21,232 nt of DNA, from positions 1-21,232 of IMG/VR virus record IMGVR_UViG_3300021963_006854; one strand, written 5' to 3'. Of this stretch, positions 1 to 20,097 are shown in pieces. The translations under genes and the position numbers were made by a program. The number at the start of each line of letters is the position of its first letter. The stretch's first letter is position 1. A model generated the notes under the pieces. The model worked only from the letters and a program-made list of their open reading frames with translations, was not told the origin of the DNA and searched no databases. This stretch comes from a virus.

Positions 1-403
1 TACCAGAGCTTCCACTAGAGCCGCTGCTACCTGAACTGCCGCTAGAGCCACTTCTACCAGAAGTTCCACTTGTACCACTGCTACCAGAGCTTCCACTAGA
101 ACCACTGCTACCAGAGCTTCCACTAGAACCACTGCTACCAGAGCTTCCACTAGAACCACTGCTACCAGAACTTCCACTAGAACCACTGCTACCAGAGCTT
201 CCACTAGAACCACTGCTACCAGAGCTTCCACTTGCACCATTAGTACCTGAAGTTCCATCTATACCACTAGTACCTGAACTTCCACTTGAACCACTAGTAC
301 CAGAAATGCCATCGATTACACTTGTTGTAATATTTTTTGGCGGAGCAATTACTACGTTAACCTCATTAGAATTTGAATTTACTGTAATATCAAAATTAGC
401 CAT
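1..403 (-). CDS. Collagen-like (Gly-X-Y) fibre protein, 3' end beyond the window
   Basis: The gene starts at 403 and runs off the left edge, so only the N-terminal 134 residues are visible. Residues 1-31 are a non-repetitive, beta-prone leader. From Gly32 onward every third residue is glycine, and the X and Y positions are almost all Ser or Thr (GSS, GTS, with rare GID, GTN, GAS). Such Gly-X-Y runs form collagen-like triple helices and are common in phage tail or head fibres, so a trimeric virion fibre is the likely role. The start lies one base after the stop of the 405-734 gene, indicating translational coupling. The Ser/Thr density makes it a possible O-glycosylation substrate for the sugar-transfer genes in this window, which is inference. 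The missing C-terminal part would normally hold the receptor-binding or trimerisation domain. Confidence 0.8.
   Translation of the reverse strand, partial: MANFDITVNSNSNEVNVVIAPPKNITTSVIDGISGTSGSSGSSGTSGIDGTSGTNGASGSSGSSGSSGSSGSSGSSGSSGSSGSSGSSGSSGSSGSSGSSGSSGSSGSSGTSGTSGRSGSSGSSGSSGSSGSSG
74..235. repeat. Six tandem copies of a 27-bp repeat encoding (Gly-Ser-Ser)3
   Basis: Six head-to-tail 27-bp units (74-100, 101-127, 128-154, 155-181, 182-208, 209-235) are nearly identical. The fourth unit has one internal change and the sixth differs in its last bases. Each unit encodes nine residues, three Gly-Ser-Ser triplets, on the minus strand. The DNA identity is higher than the protein repeat requires, which suggests recent duplication and possible length variation by recombination or slippage. 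Confidence 0.9.
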
Positions 404-9689: not shown

Positions 9690-10262
9690 TTAATTATTAG
9701 GCGTTATGTAAATAATTCCACGTTTAGCTCCTTCAGAATACAAGTCATTATTATAAAAATAACTATAGTTATTATCATATATTTTATTTAACGAATCTTT
9801 TATCCAATCGATATTTAATATTTGATTATTCCAAGTATCATAACCTAGCGTTGAAGCACCAGGAACATAAAAATCATGAATAGCAATAATCGGTTTTAAA
9901 TTATATTCTTTAATCAAATTTAACTCATTAAGCAAAGGACAATGCTCATACCAATGGGCATCTAAATAAAAAATTGTATTGCCAGTTAATTTATTTAATA
10001 TTGCTGGTAAAATATTTTCACTTTTACCGTGAATAAGAGTGGGATTTAAATTTTTATTTTTTAAATAAGCTGCGGCTTTATTTATAAAATCATAATTTGA
10101 TTCAATTGAATATACTGTATTAAAATTTTCGGATAAAAACGCAGTAGTTCCTCCTTCAAAAGTTCCAGTTTCGACTGCGTTTAAAATATTATATTTTTCT
10201 TTTAATTTTAAAAAAGTATTTGCTATATATTTGTCGTTATTGAATGGTTGATCGAAGTACAT
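9690..10262 (-). CDS. Class I SAM-dependent methyltransferase
   Basis: This 190-residue protein has a Rossmann methyltransferase pattern. The SAM-binding motif I is AVETGTFEGGTT (29-40), followed by an acidic residue at the end of strand 2 (SIES, Glu54). YLDAHWYEH (99-107) and IAIHDFYVPG (126-135) supply Asp/His residues that may bind metal. This arrangement resembles small O-methyltransferases acting on sugars or natural products rather than DNA methylases, since no DPPY-type motif is present. The gene is tightly coupled: two bases to the nuclease gene downstream and one base after the upstream stop. It may cap glycans made by the glycosyltransferases in this window, which is inference. It may otherwise be a moron carried in the packaging block. 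Confidence 0.75.
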   Translation of the reverse strand: MYFDQPFNNDKYIANTFLKLKEKYNILNAVETGTFEGGTTAFLSENFNTVYSIESNYDFINKAAAYLKNKNLNPTLIHGKSENILPAILNKLTGNTIFYLDAHWYEHCPLLNELNLIKEYNLKPIIAIHDFYVPGASTLGYDTWNNQILNIDWIKDSLNKIYDNNYSYFYNNDLYSEGAKRGIIYITPNN

Positions 10263-13232: not shown

Positions 13233-14291
13233 ATGGTTTTTCACTGTTTGAGTATTCCATATTCACCGACAAGAAAAGATATTTCTTTGTGCGCCTTCGT
13301 TCAAAAGGTTTATAAATTTTGTGAAGAAATGACTAAAAGAGGTCACACTGTTTATCATTATGGTCATGAAGACTCTAGTGTTAATTGCACAGAACATATT
13401 AATGTTATTAATAATGATATATTAAAAGAGAGTTATGGCAACTTAAATGATTGGAAAGAGAAAGGATTTGATCAAAACGTAGGAACTAAAGCTATTAGTA
13501 TCTTTAACAATAATTGCATTATTGAATTAACAAAAAGAATAAAATCTAATAACGAATTTATATTATGTTGGTTTGGATTTGCTCATGAACCATGTGTAAA
13601 ACATTTTTATAATAAAGCTATAGTTGTAGAACCAAGTATTGGTTACGACAGCATGTTTGCACCTATTAAAATATTTGAAACGCATAGTCAAATGCATAAA
13701 ATGCACGGCCATTCATGTACACATATAGGTTTGGGATCTGAATTTGTAGTTTATCCAGGTTTTGATCCTAATGATTTTTTATATAAAAAAGAAAAATCAA
13801 ATACGGCTTTGTTTCTTGGTAGAATTATAGAAGAAAAGGGAGCTAAACTTGTATATGATATATGCAACGATTTAAAACAAGATATAATTTTTGCTGGTCC
13901 AAACATACTTGGCTTAAAAGATACTAAATATTGTCAATTTGTTGGCTTTATTGATCCAATTAAAAGAATGCATTTGCTTAGTGACGCAAAATTTTTATTT
14001 GCTCCTTCATTATTTGTCGAACCCTGTAATTGGACTGTTATTGAAGCTCAATTTTCAGGAACTCCTACAATAACAACAAATTTTGGAGGCTTTACTGAAA
14101 CTATATCCCAAGCAGAAACTGGATTAAGATGTTCTACCATAAATGATATTGTTTATGCCGTCCAAAATATTAATAAATTTATTAATCCAGAAAATTGCTA
14201 TAAAAATGCAATTTCAAGATTCACGTTAGAGAAGCAGTGTGATTATTACCAACATATTTTTCATAACCTATCTTTAACTCAGACAAATTAG
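13233..14291 (+). CDS. GT4-type (GT-B fold) glycosyltransferase
   Basis: This 352-residue enzyme probably transfers a sugar from a nucleotide-activated donor. The N-terminal half has the acceptor-side pattern MTKRGHTVYHYG (33-44). The C-terminal half has donor-binding signatures: FLGRIIEEKG (194-203) and the E-x7-E retaining GT4 motif (Glu263-Glu271 in VEPCNWTVIEA), followed by SGTPTITTNFGGFTE (275-289). It is intact and close to the size of phage GT4 enzymes. It is the only plus-strand gene inside the minus-strand block, lying between phoH and the small 127-residue gene. Its last 71 bases overlap the end of the latter in antisense. It is likely part of the same glycosylation function as the large glycosyltransferase, though separately regulated. 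Confidence 0.88.
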   Translation: MVFHCLSIPYSPTRKDISLCAFVQKVYKFCEEMTKRGHTVYHYGHEDSSVNCTEHINVINNDILKESYGNLNDWKEKGFDQNVGTKAISIFNNNCIIELTKRIKSNNEFILCWFGFAHEPCVKHFYNKAIVVEPSIGYDSMFAPIKIFETHSQMHKMHGHSCTHIGLGSEFVVYPGFDPNDFLYKKEKSNTALFLGRIIEEKGAKLVYDICNDLKQDIIFAGPNILGLKDTKYCQFVGFIDPIKRMHLLSDAKFLFAPSLFVEPCNWTVIEAQFSGTPTITTNFGGFTETISQAETGLRCSTINDIVYAVQNINKFINPENCYKNAISRFTLEKQCDYYQHIFHNLSLTQTN

Positions 14292-14604
14292 TATTAAAAA
14301 ATTTTTTCTGAAAGCTTTCTTTAGCTATGTGCCTTTGATAATTACAATAATCAACATACTGTGCAGAGACTTCATTATTCTTGGCTTTATCAACGGCTTC
14401 GAAAGTTAATAAATTTGCTTTAATCATATTTTTATATTCTTCTGAATTTATTATCGATAACCATTTTTCTGAATCAAATTGATTTTGTAGATTAGAAAAA
14501 CAATTCTCCCAAGCACTATTAGCGTTTGAAGATTTTCGTTTTTTTATTTCAAGTATGCTTAAATAATCGAAAGCGTAAGCTTCATCAACTTTTAAATTAA
14601 TCAT
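14221..14604 (-). CDS. Small conserved-looking protein of unknown function (127 aa)
   Basis: This is a soluble, largely helical 127-residue protein without transmembrane segments or metal motifs. It opens with KVDEAYAFDYLSILEIKK, a pattern I associate with small phage proteins found beside glycosyltransferases, though I cannot name a family. It follows the giant glycosyltransferase with an 11-base gap, suggesting co-transcription and a helper role. Its last 71 bases are antisense to the end of the plus-strand GT4 gene. The reading frame appears genuine because its amino-acid composition and start context match its neighbours. Confidence 0.65.
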   Translation of the reverse strand: MINLKVDEAYAFDYLSILEIKKRKSSNANSAWENCFSNLQNQFDSEKWLSIINSEEYKNMIKANLLTFEAVDKAKNNEVSAQYVDYCNYQRHIAKESFQKKFFNTNLSELKIGYEKYVGNNHTASLT

Positions 14605-14615
14605 ATTAATTTATA

Positions 14616-17600
14616 TTAAAAATTTTTTACTCTTTTATCTATAAAAGATTCACCATCATACTGTGAGGCGAATCTATTGAATACGATACCCATTTTTAAA
14701 TTATTATTATAACAAAAATCATTAAACCAACCATCTATCACATACCAAGGTTTATTTTTAAAATCTTCTATAAGTAAATTTCTTATATTTTTATTAAACA
14801 TTAAGCACTGACTTCCAATTATTTTATCAGTAATATAACATAAACCTTGATCTTTAGGAATTTCAACTATTGATGATTGTAAAATTCTGCTTTCAAGCGT
14901 TTTAGAATCGCCAAATGAAAAGTATGAAATATTTTCCTTCTCGCAAATTTCAGTTATCTTTCCAAGATATTTAATAAAGTCTTCATGACTTATTTCAAAT
15001 AAACAGTCTCCTTCACATGTTATTAAAAAATCTGTATCATCATTAAATTCTTTTAATATAGCTTTTCTATATGAATCAAAACATCCATAATGTCTATTTG
15101 TAAGCCTATCATCACTATCAGCATTTAATAATTTTGGATATTTACAATTAACAAAATGATCATATCCATCATATAATTTATTTTTAATATTGATATATTC
15201 AACACCAAAATTCTTGAATTTTTCTATAAAAGCTTGAGATTTTTTTTCATTTTCTGTGTTTATAGTTGTCTGCAAATGAACAATCTTAATTTTTTTATGT
15301 TTATTTTTTAATTCGTCAATTATTATATCAATTTTTTCCATAATTTGATCTTCATTAATATTTTTTGAACATTCAAAATTTTTATTTTCTGGACACCAAT
15401 TCCAAAGAGAAGCGTCGAAATTATATTTTTTATTATTAAAACATCCATTGCATACCTTATCATTAAAAACAGTATATGGAGAAAAAAATTCAAATTGCGG
15501 AGTTACAGATGAGTTTATTTTTATTATCTTTTTATTTAGAGACCAAGCTAACCATGATAAACCCGAACTTAAACCTATAAAAAATTCACAATTATTAATA
15601 ATATCTATTACATTATCAAAATCGCTGTTTCCAACAAATTCATCAATATTAATTGGACATGTATTAATGAATTTATCCTTGCCAAATGAAAAATGTTTAT
15701 CAACGCATATTACTTTATAGCCTTTATTTTTGAGATAATCTATAATTTTCTCCCAACCTTGTTTTTTATTCCAATAACGTGATTGAGACGTTGATTGCAT
15801 TGCTATACATACATATTTTTCATATTTTAATTTATATTTATTAGGAACATTAACTTTAGTTTTTTCAATTGGAACATCGATATTTAAAATTCTACCAGCT
15901 ATTTGTTGTAAAGATATTTCTCTCCAGTCTACAGGAATTTTACTCCCAAACTCAAAACAACCAATTTGAAAATTAGCATAATAATGAACAAAAGTTTCAT
16001 CTTCATAATTATAAAAATTAATGTTAGGATATTGTTTATCAAATAAATTTTTTTTAGGAGTAAAATAATGAACTATACAATCATGTTTCTTTTGAAATTC
16101 ATTAATTATAGGCATCCATGCAATAGAATCTCCTAAACTTCCAGATTCATTTGTAATTTTTATTACTTTTTTATTTAAATCGAAATTAAATATTTTTTCA
16201 ATTCCGTATTTAATATTAGTTACAACTATTTTCCATTTGCAATAGTAACTTGTAGAGCAAGCTGTCCAATGATTGGTTCGTATATTAGATTGGAAATGAA
16301 TTGATCCTGTAAGCTCATCAATAAATTTTACATTATATACGATATCTTCTTTTCCATTTATTTCTATAGTTGGCGTTGGTGTAAATCTACATTGTATATT
16401 ATTAGGCTCAGTATCCTGTTCGATAAAAAAAGTATAATTATTTTTATTATTAATTGGTAATTTTTCAAACAAGTAGCGTTCCAAATTGTTATTTTTTATA
16501 AATTTTAAATTATCGTTTTCTGAATAAATTGATCTGAGTGTGTTAATGTCAGATATAAAACACATCATATTCCATGACAACGCTTCTTTTAATGAAATAG
16601 GATTTAATTCTTCAAATGATGGCAATACAAATACATCCATACAAGACATAAATACATCAACATCATTTCTTTCTCCCCAAATTTTACAATTTTCTAAATC
16701 TTTATTTAAATTACACTCATCAATATAACAACTGTTTCCTACAAAATGAAATTGTATATTTTTTCCTAAAAATTTAATCGCTAAATCAAAAATTGATTTT
16801 TGATTTTTATTTATAGAAAACAAACCAACTTGCAAAACATGTATTTTATTTGGATCTAAATTTAGATTTTTTAAAGTTAAATCTCTGTCTGGCCTAATTT
16901 TGACATTAATATTCATTTCTACAAGTCTAGATTTGATGTTTGTTGTTTTAATTTTTTGATATTGAAAATCACTAACAACCCATACTTCATCAGGTAAATT
17001 TAGTTTTTTTGTTACATCTGTTTTAGCTGAATGAGTAGTTTCGAATAATTTAAATTTTCTATTCTTATCGTATAAGAAAGATATTAATTCATTAGTTAAA
17101 TTAGCTATAGCAAAATTCTCACTAAACTCATTCAAATGAATAAAATCAGGATCAAAATTTTTAATATATTCAATTACAAATTTAGTTTGTTCTTCAAAAT
17201 AATTTTTATCTTGAGTATAATGTCCAACGCTTAGAAAATTAGTTTCGCCAATCATTCTTATAATTTCATTTCTTTGAACAATATAAGTTGGACTATATAA
17301 ATTCCACTCAATTACTTTTATATCAAAACCTTCTTTAATTTTATTTGATATTAGCCATTCTAAATACTTGGGACTTCCGCCAGTAGATAAATGAGGAGCT
17401 ATAAAAAGAAATCGCTTTTTATTAACCAATATATTCTTTTCTTTATCTGATGATATGTAATTGATCACATTTTGTGGCGATGGATGACATTCAAAACTAG
17501 ATTTATTTTCTAAACAGTTAATTAATGGAGGAACGCCTTGAATCGTCTTCCATTCTTTTACTCCATATTTCATGTCTGAAGCGCAAAAAATGTTACAAGA

Positions 17601-19286
17601 TCCACTAATATACTTGTATTTATATGATTGAGATCCTTTTCTATATGGGGCGCGTAATTTATTATTAATTGATGAGCCTAGTTGAATTATTTCAGCATCG
17701 GTAGTTCCAGCAAGATGCAATAAACCAGAATCCATAGTAATAAAATACTTAGATTTATTTATAACATGCCAACATTGTGAAATAGAAAGTTTATTAGTTA
17801 AATCTAATCCATTCAAAAAATTTAATTTTTTAGTTGGTTTTTCTATATTATAAAAACCAGATTCATAAGCATTTTTACCAATTAAAACTACAGAAAAACC
17901 TTTTTGATTTATTAGATTTATCAAAGTTTGCCAATTTTCATCTGAATAAGTTCTTGAAGGCCAAGTATTGGCAACATGCAAACAAATATAATTTTCTGGT
18001 AAATTATTTATTTCTATATAATCATTTGCTATATAGTCATACTCCATTTCATTTTCATGGAGCATAAACCCTAAATCTATAGCATGAAATTGTCTAATAT
18101 CTATAGTATTGTGCTTCTTCTCAACACCGTATTTATTTTTCTCTCCACCTAATCCTAAAAATGTATTAAAAATTTCTTTATACTTATTTTCATTAATTTT
18201 TTCATCAAAAGCGAAAACTTTATTAACATACTTATTATTTAAAAATAATTCTGGATGATATGTAACAACATCTATTTTTTTATCATAAGAATTATACAGT
18301 TTACGCAATGTTGGCGTAGCGGCTAAAGTATCACCAAGAGATACTGAATTTATTTTTAATAAAAAATTAGAAGTCATTGTTTGTATAATATAATTATATT
18401 CATCATCAGAAATTTTACCATGATAAAAATATAAATTTTTGATATTTTCAATCGAAGGAATTCTGCAAAAAGTGTCTATAAAATAATCTTCATGACGTAA
18501 ATTTTTAAGACTATTTAACATTTCTTTTATTTTTTGTAATGATTTGGCATAATCGTAATTATTATATGGCAAATTAATTAAAGATTGAGATAAATCTACG
18601 ATAGATGATTTTTGCCACATCAAACAGTTTGCAACAGTCTCTTCATGAAAAGGAGCTATATATTTCCAATTTTCAACCACTTCTTTTTTTATACAAATAT
18701 TAATCCATTCATTAAAAAAATTTTTACATTTATTATTAAATAGAAATATACCTGTTTGCAAATACTGTTTTCTTATACCAACATCTAATCCCATTAAATT
18801 CATAAGATCAGCCTCCAAACAAAGTTTTAAATCATATCCATTGTTTATAAATGGATCTCCTCTTCCATTAATTAACATGAAGTCATGACAGCCTTTATTA
18901 AATAAAGGATAATCTATTATTAAAGATGATTTATCGAAAATATTATCACAATTATTAATCGCTAAACAATCAGCATCTAAATAACAAAAATTATTTTTAA
19001 CATCTGATTCTGTAGACAACAACTCTCTCATTAAAAATGGTTTCAAAAATACGTTATAAGCCTTTGTAGTCTCTTCAATAGAAGAATATTTGCTATAACG
19101 TTCAAAATTATGCAAATAAATTTTAGAATTTACTTCAATCGGTATGACGTTAGTGAATTTAGATTTATAGTTGAAATCTACTGTATAAAAAATTATTTTA
19201 TTGTTAGAAAATAATGATAAAGTTTCAAAAAGACGTTCAGCATATTTTAAAAAATGCACATCACAATGAGTAACGAAATAATTCAT
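14616..19286 (-). CDS. Five-module glycosyltransferase polyprotein including an autotransporter-heptosyltransferase-like module
   Basis: One 1556-residue frame holds five apparent sugar-transfer modules. Residues 1-300: GT-A fold with the metal-binding D-A-D at 104-106. Residues 308-610: GT9-like heptosyltransferase (SLGDTLAATPTLRKL, 316-330; MDSGLLHLAGT, 518-528) with four Cys at 564, 568, 591 and 600. Residues 622-945: GT4-like, with GLFSINKNQKS (821-831) and E-x7-E (Glu893-Glu901). Residues 960-1330: a beta segment plus GT9-like domain resembling bacterial autotransporter heptosyltransferases (SLGDSIAWMP, 1050-1059; RYWNKKQGWEKI, 1170-1181; SSGLSWLAWSL, 1240-1250) with CxxC, Cys and Cys at 1279, 1282, 1298 and 1306. 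Residues 1333-1556: GT-A/GT25-like with E-G-D at 1425-1427. No signal peptide or transmembrane helix is seen. It may assemble a short glycan on phage or host proteins or surface. The start lies one base after the epimerase stop. Confidence 0.88.
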   Translation of the reverse strand: MNYFVTHCDVHFLKYAERLFETLSLFSNNKIIFYTVDFNYKSKFTNVIPIEVNSKIYLHNFERYSKYSSIEETTKAYNVFLKPFLMRELLSTESDVKNNFCYLDADCLAINNCDNIFDKSSLIIDYPLFNKGCHDFMLINGRGDPFINNGYDLKLCLEADLMNLMGLDVGIRKQYLQTGIFLFNNKCKNFFNEWINICIKKEVVENWKYIAPFHEETVANCLMWQKSSIVDLSQSLINLPYNNYDYAKSLQKIKEMLNSLKNLRHEDYFIDTFCRIPSIENIKNLYFYHGKISDDEYNYIIQTMTSNFLLKINSVSLGDTLAATPTLRKLYNSYDKKIDVVTYHPELFLNNKYVNKVFAFDEKINENKYKEIFNTFLGLGGEKNKYGVEKKHNTIDIRQFHAIDLGFMLHENEMEYDYIANDYIEINNLPENYICLHVANTWPSRTYSDENWQTLINLINQKGFSVVLIGKNAYESGFYNIEKPTKKLNFLNGLDLTNKLSISQCWHVINKSKYFITMDSGLLHLAGTTDAEIIQLGSSINNKLRAPYRKGSQSYKYKYISGSCNIFCASDMKYGVKEWKTIQGVPPLINCLENKSSFECHPSPQNVINYISSDKEKNILVNKKRFLFIAPHLSTGGSPKYLEWLISNKIKEGFDIKVIEWNLYSPTYIVQRNEIIRMIGETNFLSVGHYTQDKNYFEEQTKFVIEYIKNFDPDFIHLNEFSENFAIANLTNELISFLYDKNRKFKLFETTHSAKTDVTKKLNLPDEVWVVSDFQYQKIKTTNIKSRLVEMNINVKIRPDRDLTLKNLNLDPNKIHVLQVGLFSINKNQKSIFDLAIKFLGKNIQFHFVGNSCYIDECNLNKDLENCKIWGERNDVDVFMSCMDVFVLPSFEELNPISLKEALSWNMMCFISDINTLRSIYSENDNLKFIKNNNLERYLFEKLPINNKNNYTFFIEQDTEPNNIQCRFTPTPTIEINGKEDIVYNVKFIDELTGSIHFQSNIRTNHWTACSTSYYCKWKIVVTNIKYGIEKIFNFDLNKKVIKITNESGSLGDSIAWMPIINEFQKKHDCIVHYFTPKKNLFDKQYPNINFYNYEDETFVHYYANFQIGCFEFGSKIPVDWREISLQQIAGRILNIDVPIEKTKVNVPNKYKLKYEKYVCIAMQSTSQSRYWNKKQGWEKIIDYLKNKGYKVICVDKHFSFGKDKFINTCPINIDEFVGNSDFDNVIDIINNCEFFIGLSSGLSWLAWSLNKKIIKINSSVTPQFEFFSPYTVFNDKVCNGCFNNKKYNFDASLWNWCPENKNFECSKNINEDQIMEKIDIIIDELKNKHKKIKIVHLQTTINTENEKKSQAFIEKFKNFGVEYINIKNKLYDGYDHFVNCKYPKLLNADSDDRLTNRHYGCFDSYRKAILKEFNDDTDFLITCEGDCLFEISHEDFIKYLGKITEICEKENISYFSFGDSKTLESRILQSSIVEIPKDQGLCYITDKIIGSQCLMFNKNIRNLLIEDFKNKPWYVIDGWFNDFCYNNNLKMGIVFNRFASQYDGESFIDKRVKNF

Positions 19287-19287
19287 A

Positions 19288-20097
19288 TTAAATAATTGTA
19301 TTTATCTTAGTAATATTCGCGCACGAATGTCGAACTTCTTTTTTTGCTTCCTTATATATGATATCATTTCCAAACTGTTTTGCTAGTGTGTTTATAGAAA
19401 TAGAATTGCCGGTCCCAATATTAAATATTTCATTTTTTATATTTTTATTTATAAGGTTAGATATGTGATTACATGTATCGCTAACGCTTATAAAATCTCT
19501 TGTTTGTTCGCCATCGCCATATATAATTAAAGATTCATTCTTTTGTTTAGCAAGATTAAATGCAGTTATTACGCCAGCATATTCAAGATTTTGACCAATA
19601 CCATATACATTAAATAAACGTAGTATTAAATAATCGATATTCCATAATTGACAATACATTTGTATATATTTTTCGGATACTAATTTATCTAATCCATATG
19701 GACTATTCGGCTCTGTAGAATCTGTTTCGCTAACAGTTCCTTCTTTATCACCATACACTGCTGCGCTAGATGAGAATATAAATTTTTTAATATTATGGAG
19801 TTTGGCGGCTGATAATATTTTTATAGTCAAGAATGTATTATTGCCGAAACTATTCACTGGATCATCAAATGATCGCGGCACACTTACCATTGCAGCAAGA
19901 TGAATGATACAATCTATATTCTTAAATATATTATCATTAATATCAACATCTAATATGTCTATGATTTTTTGCCGATGATCGGGAAGTGCGGGGCTGGGAA
20001 TTTTATCTAGATTGTATATTTCGTGTCCATCATTCAACAGCCTATTTATTAAATGAGTGCCTATGAAACCTGAACCCCCAGTAACTAATACGCGCAT
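19288..20097 (-). CDS. NAD-dependent sugar-nucleotide epimerase/dehydratase (SDR), C-terminally short
   Basis: This 269-residue extended short-chain dehydrogenase resembles UDP-glucose 4-epimerase. It has the NAD-binding motif TGGSGFIG (6-13), an acidic residue ending strand 2 (Asp31), the catalytic region FSSSAAVYG (108-116) and YxxxK (Tyr134, Lys138). Family members usually run to about 300-320 residues. Here the chain ends just after the conserved EVRHSCANITK segment, so roughly 40 C-terminal residues are missing and no downstream remnant is visible. It would supply a modified sugar nucleotide to the glycosyltransferase encoded one base downstream (TAA-T-ATG). The active site looks complete, so it may still function. 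It starts beside a TATAAT box and a 12-bp palindrome. Confidence 0.85.
   Translation of the reverse strand: MRVLVTGGSGFIGTHLINRLLNDGHEIYNLDKIPSPALPDHRQKIIDILDVDINDNIFKNIDCIIHLAAMVSVPRSFDDPVNSFGNNTFLTIKILSAAKLHNIKKFIFSSSAAVYGDKEGTVSETDSTEPNSPYGLDKLVSEKYIQMYCQLWNIDYLILRLFNVYGIGQNLEYAGVITAFNLAKQKNESLIIYGDGEQTRDFISVSDTCNHISNLINKNIKNEIFNIGTGNSISINTLAKQFGNDIIYKEAKKEVRHSCANITKINTII

Follow-up and report, generated by a model that had tools for sequence, protein, structure and literature searches.

A five-module glycosyltransferase chain with a TibC-type module in an uncultured tailed-phage lineage, and a collagen-like fibre as its candidate acceptor

Introduction

Phage glycosyltransferases (GTs) are usually attributed to DNA modification or to change of the host lipopolysaccharide (LPS). 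Virion glycosylation, TibC-type enzymes and viral proteins with several GTs are each already known. Bacterial TibC relatives put sugars on the serines of surface proteins (PMC4358343). In TibC itself, Asp110 is the candidate base, Thr226 and Lys230 hold the beta-phosphate, Trp305 contacts the heptose, Arg286 contacts the adenine, and Cys339, 342, 358 and 370 bind iron (PMC4358343). Among collagen-like proteins, bacterial BclA is glycosylated (PMC8968730). Here we describe a gene for five predicted GT modules in series, the fourth of TibC/Aah type, in IMG/VR virus record IMGVR_UViG_3300021963_006854 (the window, the whole stretch of 21,232 bases that was analyzed). Literature searches, confined to open-licence papers, turned up neither a phage TibC-type module nor the present fusion. 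Based on sequence comparison, the chain probably builds a short O-glycan on a collagen-like fibre of the same phage, with the TibC-type module starting.

Results

Five GT modules in one intact gene

A first-pass annotation of the window, made from its letters alone, had described one uninterrupted 1556-codon frame at 14616-19286 and had read it as GT-A, GT9-like, GT4-like, second GT9-like and second GT-A modules in series. The coordinates were found to be exact and the open reading frame (ORF) intact, with the gene on the minus strand, which the annotation had not stated. The annotation's view of five GT modules held, as did its segment limits, which are close to those found here (amino acids 1-307, 308-618, 619-960, 961-1328 and 1329-1556), but module 4 is of TibC/Aah type and not a plain second GT9. 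The profile and structure check that the annotation had suggested assigned all five segments as predicted GTs, either by profile (modules 2, 3 and 4) or by AlphaFold2 fold (modules 1 and 5). The chain and its modules are as follows.

14616..19286, minus strand: five-module glycosyltransferase chain, 1,556 amino acids, single ORF
18366..19286, minus strand: module 1 (amino acids 1-307), GT-A fold, GT8/GT6-like
17433..18365, minus strand: module 2 (308-618), GT9, LPS-heptosyltransferase-like, GT-B, SLGD motif
16407..17432, minus strand: module 3 (619-960), GT4, GT-B, E-x7-E motif
15303..16406, minus strand: module 4 (961-1328), protein O-glycosyltransferase module of TibC/Aah type, with a four-cysteine iron-finger and a putative N-terminal barrel region
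14619..15302, minus strand: module 5 (1329-1556), GT25-like GT-A

The minus strand holds the 1,556 codons without an internal stop, while the plus strand has many stops there; the chance of an equally long stop-free frame, computed at the window's base composition, is about 10^-69. An overlapping assembly (L002, a contig of 28,561 bases) has the same 1,556-residue frame and 14.6 kb in common with the window at 99.99% identity, which makes an assembly join very unlikely. The same five-module order was also found in a second phage species, assembled from two samples (L022/L195 and L025/L196; 1,557 amino acids, 62% identical to the window chain); the first-pass annotation had proposed such a search in other phage genomes. 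Between the two species, nonsynonymous and synonymous divergence were dN = 0.29 and dS = 1.61, and third codon positions were the most variable in all five modules; because of this pattern, purifying selection is taken to act along the whole length of the chain, all five modules included.

Module 4 is of the TibC/Aah type

Module 4 matched TIGR04414 at 306 bits (curated cut-off 200, E 3.5e-91) over nearly the whole profile, and matched the TibC crystal structure 4rap at E 7.7e-56. It keeps Asp110, Thr226 and Trp305 of TibC (as D1053, T1166 and W1245) together with all four iron-finger cysteines (C1279, C1282, C1298 and C1306), and the catalytic aspartate and four metal-binding cysteines are invariant across 94 viral TibC-type modules. 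The TIGR04414 alignment spans the N-terminal beta-barrel region, where no match to Pfam TibC_1st was found. The segment length of the beta-hairpin thumb is retained, with the hydrophobic tip F265-V266 of TibC aligned to K-F. Arg286 of TibC is retained in 89 of 91 modules from bacterial genome contigs vs 51 of 94 viral modules. In the family tree, which was built with FastTree only and has long branches, the viral modules are largely set apart. Because of this separation and the changes at Lys230 and Arg286 taken up in the Discussion, the module is named TibC-type and is not classed as an autotransporter heptosyltransferase.

Modules 2 and 3 by profile, modules 1 and 5 by fold

Module 2 was assigned to GT9 by PF01075 (E 6e-22; 78.5 bits for the whole protein vs a cut-off of 22, best stretch amino acids 422-548); TIGR02193 also matched at E 2e-15, under that profile's curated cut-off. 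For module 3, PF00534 (E 7e-10, 39.2 bits vs a cut-off of 26.4) and PF13692 (E 1.5e-7) were matched, and the E-x7-E motif, EELNPISLKE, starts at amino acid 892. PHROGs gave no useful match to the chain.

Modules 1 and 5 were folded with AlphaFold2 because profile searches of them against PDB sequences gave no reliable match. The model of module 1, with a predicted local distance difference test score (pLDDT) of 92, matched LARGE1, GT6 and LgtC by Foldseek (prob 1.00), and VIA comparison gave Z of about 16 to GT6, LgtC, LARGE1 and one half of the bifunctional WbbM. Its DxD motif is formed by D104 and D106, which together with E216 and H289 are invariant among 28 sequences. No Pfam family matched module 1, so it is placed as a GT8/GT6-like GT-A enzyme without a CAZy family. 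The model of module 5 (pLDDT 89) resembles GT25 enzymes, with human COLGALT1 at the top (VIA Z 17.7, template modelling score 0.67) beside Mimivirus R655, although a fold match alone shows no function. PF01755 (GT25) matched 6 of 23 homologues of module 5 (best E 4e-6), the window's own module 5 not being among them.

A collagen-like fibre is associated with the TibC-type module

The start of the window carries part of a fibre gene.

2..403, minus strand: N-terminal part of a collagen-like fibre protein, candidate acceptor (Pfam Collagen E 2e-23, Peptidase_S74 E 2e-9)

An overlapping contig extends this fibre to at least 1,529 amino acids (L192 1-4587, minus strand), and the Collagen match reaches 82.3 bits vs a cut-off of 27.2. 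Peptidase_S74 chaperone domains are common on phage fibres, and the window phage's fibre ends in one. In the long (Gly-X-Y)n stretches of the fibres of this lineage, 76-97% of the X and Y residues are Ser or Thr, with almost no Pro; the window fibre has many NTTG-type repeats as well. In the window phage and its relatives the fibre gene directly follows the capsid genes, and a Ser/Thr collagen-like fibre was detected in 14 of the 15 contigs of the lineage with enough sequence beyond the capsid gene.

The association was examined across lineages by use of viral contigs pulled either by a DNA pattern for GTSGSSGTSG (fibre set, 47 contigs, two positive controls left out) or by a random 15-mer (control set, 26 contigs). 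TIGR04414 scored above its cut-off in 21 of the 47 fibre contigs and in none of the 26 random contigs (Fisher P 2e-5). The fibre and the TibC-type module were at most 6 kb apart in 14 of these 21 contigs; among contigs of at least 100 kb, this distance was found in 6 of 9 vs about 1.1 expected (P 1.4e-4).

Only 4 of 50,697 deposited phage records have a TibC-type module, and one of these is an isolate, Microcystis phage Mel-JY01. It carries an unannotated collagen-like frame of at least 1,016 amino acids with the same repeats (Collagen 1.4e-66). Its end lies 1.7 kb ahead of a gene that fuses GT4 and TibC-type modules and is annotated as 'methyltransferase FkbM'. The collagen-like frame (L018:2-3052, plus strand) runs off the start of the record, and two opposite-strand coding sequences annotated over it are probably antisense artefacts.

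A variable locus built around a constant TibC-type module

Relatives were fetched by terminase similarity alone (80 contigs, of which 30 had enough upstream sequence; several are of the same species). At least one TibC-type module was found at this place in all 30, while its partner modules differ, up to a total of about six. With four to about six modules in the chains of relatives, the five modules that the first-pass annotation had presented as exceptional are real but not unique. The order m1-m2-m3-m4-m5 occurs in the window, L195 and L196. Other relatives have m1-m2-m3-m4, on its own or with a GT2 gene or an FkbM methyltransferase gene behind it, and further arrangements are m3-m4-m5, m2-m3-m4 and m4 alone. 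Longer chains also occur; one of them (L207 8454-14129, minus strand; 1,891 amino acids) has about six modules, namely GT-A, GT9, FkbM methyltransferase, weak GT2-like, GT4 and TibC-type, with the methyltransferase and the weak GT2-like module as insertions between modules 2 and 3. Across the locus, the TibC-type module is the fixed core around which the other modules vary. Since the same modules are separate neighbouring genes or stand in other fusions in related phages, they likely act in a joint pathway.

Chains from phages that share 80-99% identity in their capsid and terminase proteins are themselves 49-69% identical. Compared with the chain of L194, the first approximately 100 residues of the window chain are identical and the remainder about 42-90% identical, which points to recombination and a mosaic chain. 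In L194 (5040-5130), the reading frame changes between the m4 and m5 parts, at a homopolymeric A run; the window and L195/L196 keep one frame there. Module 5 was considered as a naturally separate gene in L194, but this view is weakened, as the change of frame could be mutation, assembly error or slippage.

Two further contigs were noted. A relative of 1,600 amino acids (L004 3628-8430, plus strand) has module 1 twice in tandem, which suggests chain growth by duplication. A contig in a Chloroflexi metagenome-assembled genome (L112) has m3-m5 and m4 genes of phage type; it probably comes from a phage and was binned with that genome.

Lineage and flanking genes

On the same strand as the chain, the window carries terminase, portal, protease/scaffold, capsid and fibre genes in this order, where portal, protease and capsid are read from gene position and size. 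The nearest deposited terminases are just 22-28% identical to that of the window phage; the source is a tailed-phage lineage without a cultured member. Around the chain are the following genes.

19288..20097, minus strand: nicotinamide adenine dinucleotide (NAD)-dependent nucleotide-sugar epimerase/dehydratase, 269 amino acids, directly upstream of the chain (PF01370 E 2e-54)
14221..14604, minus strand: protein of 127 amino acids, directly downstream of the chain
13233..14291, plus strand: separate GT4 glycosyltransferase, 352 amino acids, convergent with the chain (PF00534 E 6e-14; PHROG 3408)
9690-10262, minus strand: class I methyltransferase-like ORF, 190 amino acids, about 4 kb from the chain

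The epimerase is 66-91% identical and at the same position in at least five relatives, the 127-residue protein is 70-84% identical at the same position in L194-L198 and L207 and has no Pfam or NCBIfam match, and the separate GT4 gene is present in nearly all terminase-related contigs. These three genes are a syntenic part of the chain locus in close relatives, as the first-pass annotation had supposed when it grouped them into a glycosylation locus. By contrast, the possible 190-residue methyltransferase that it had included is rejected as a member, being about 4 kb off and missing at that place in all relatives examined. No Pfam family matched this ORF, and chemotaxis-inhibitor and similar matches to it (E 0.02-0.05) were treated as chance.

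Farther out, on the right flank of an overlapping contig (L193 1300-3600), short G/C-rich inverted repeats recur between small genes and encode PPPPPGGGGG-like stretches in several frames.

Discussion

The kind of enzyme in module 4 and its linkage to a Ser/Thr-rich fibre lead us to favour, with more confidence than doubt, the proposal that the chain builds a short O-glycan on a collagen-like fibre. The TibC-type module would attach the first sugar to Ser/Thr side chains, most likely those of the (Gly-Ser/Thr-Ser/Thr)n fibre, which we infer to be the best candidate acceptor; the first-pass annotation had named none. The GT-A, GT9, GT4 and GT25-like modules would then add further sugars, and the epimerase and the separate GT4 may supply or extend the glycan. 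Sequential 'assembly-line' action is plausible from the arrangement of the modules, though their order in the chain need not be that of the sugars. With modules gained, lost, inserted and recombined, the glycan would differ from phage to phage, as is to be expected of a surface that hosts or predators encounter.

Several points weigh against this proposal. In module 4, Arg286 of TibC (the adenine contact) is replaced by Val and Lys230 by Arg, leaving the set of donor-site residues incomplete. The known TibC acceptor repeat TIGR04415 was found in 0 of 32 phage records, the window's own contig included, while controls including E. coli were matched. No gmhA was found in phages with a TibC-type module, and rfaE-like matches in these phages were all below cut-off and were seen in controls too; judging from sequence, the donor sugar of the module need not be adenosine diphosphate heptose. 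On the side of the fibre, 26 of the 47 fibre contigs show no TibC-type module (many are fragments), and the random-contig control was not lineage-matched. Fibre and GT genes alike may lie close to virion genes for unrelated reasons, which could add to the linkage, and the Ser-Gly repeats might be unmodified spacers.

The alternative that survives best, though we judge it unlikely, is that the chain modifies a host surface glycan (LPS, O-antigen or capsule) and, for example, blocks superinfection. Modules 2 and 4 are members of GT9 or similar to it, and module 5 resembles GT25; both families are known from LPS synthesis, and a host-glycan role has been proposed for the GTs of pelagimyophages (PMC7029224). 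Such a role fits poorly with a locus that adjoins packaging and capsid genes, whose constant module is of a protein-modifying type and is linked to a Ser/Thr fibre gene.

Somewhat less credit is given to the possibility that the virion is glycosylated mainly elsewhere, on the major capsid, decoration or tail protein or on the NTTG-repeat part of the fibre, and not on the collagen-like repeats. Capsid and tail-tube proteins of mycobacteriophages are glycosylated, according to work cited in PMC12619734, as is the capsid of PBCV-1 (PMC9614988), and the NTTG-type repeats of the window fibre are many. The cross-lineage association is with the Gly-Ser/Thr triplets, which argues against these other acceptors.

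That the modules glycosylate modified bases of phage DNA is very improbable. To our knowledge, TibC-type modules have no role on DNA, which counts against it, no base-modifying gene was recognised within the 21 kb window, and the linkage to the fibre gene would be left unexplained. DNA glycosylation is known for some phage GTs, as cited in PMC12619734. An assembly join of separate genes can be dismissed, for although separate genes for the modules exist in some relatives, it is ruled out by the overlapping contig with the same frame, the fusion in a second species and the purifying selection over all modules, which also answers the first-pass annotation's own concern about such a join.

Returning to O-glycosylation of the fibre, we hypothesise that the glycan may stabilise a proline-free triple helix. 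More broadly, and tentatively, many phages might carry a glyco-collagen system in which a TibC-type initiator and combinatorially fused extenders O-glycosylate proline-free (Gly-Ser/Thr-Ser/Thr)n fibres, sugars replace proline/hydroxyproline in stabilising the triple helix, and the variable chain diversifies the virion surface.

A protein-modifying enzyme type forms the fixed centre of a rapidly changing locus in one lineage, and in many other phages it is linked to a recognisable fibre. This opens acceptor, donor and order of action to direct tests, with the isolate Mel-JY01 as a laboratory system, and multi-enzyme chains with a protein-initiating module would be useful for glycoengineering.

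Compared with the bacterial TibC/Aah autotransporter heptosyltransferases (TIGR04414; 4rap), phage module 4 is alike in the catalytic Asp, Thr226, Trp305 and the four iron-finger Cys; it differs in being fused to four other GTs, in its changed Arg286 and Lys230, and in having no autotransporter or TIGR04415 repeat. Gtf1/2, the enzyme that initiates glycosylation of streptococcal serine-rich repeat adhesins, is a different GT from the TibC type. Like the system proposed here, that pathway (Gtf1/2, Gtf3, dGT1, GalT2 and Gly; PMC5207161) starts with a protein GT and continues with extending GTs on a Ser-rich surface protein, but it proceeds stepwise from separate genes. Phage-encoded GTs modify virion proteins in mycobacteriophages as well (Freeman 2023, cited in PMC12619734), there at the C-termini of capsid and tail-tube proteins and, as far as the account in PMC12619734 goes, with no multi-GT chain reported. 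Mimivirus modifies its own collagen-like protein with the glycosyltransferases L230 and R655 (PMC9614988, PMC9546862), similarly to the proposal, with sugars on hydroxylysine instead of Ser/Thr and without a five-module chain. In PBCV-1, the multidomain GTs A111/114R and A064R (PMC9614988) have three domains and build a capsid N-glycan of an algal virus without a TibC-type module; as proposed for the phage chain, one viral protein that combines several GT domains (plus a methyltransferase) makes the glycan that a virion protein carries.

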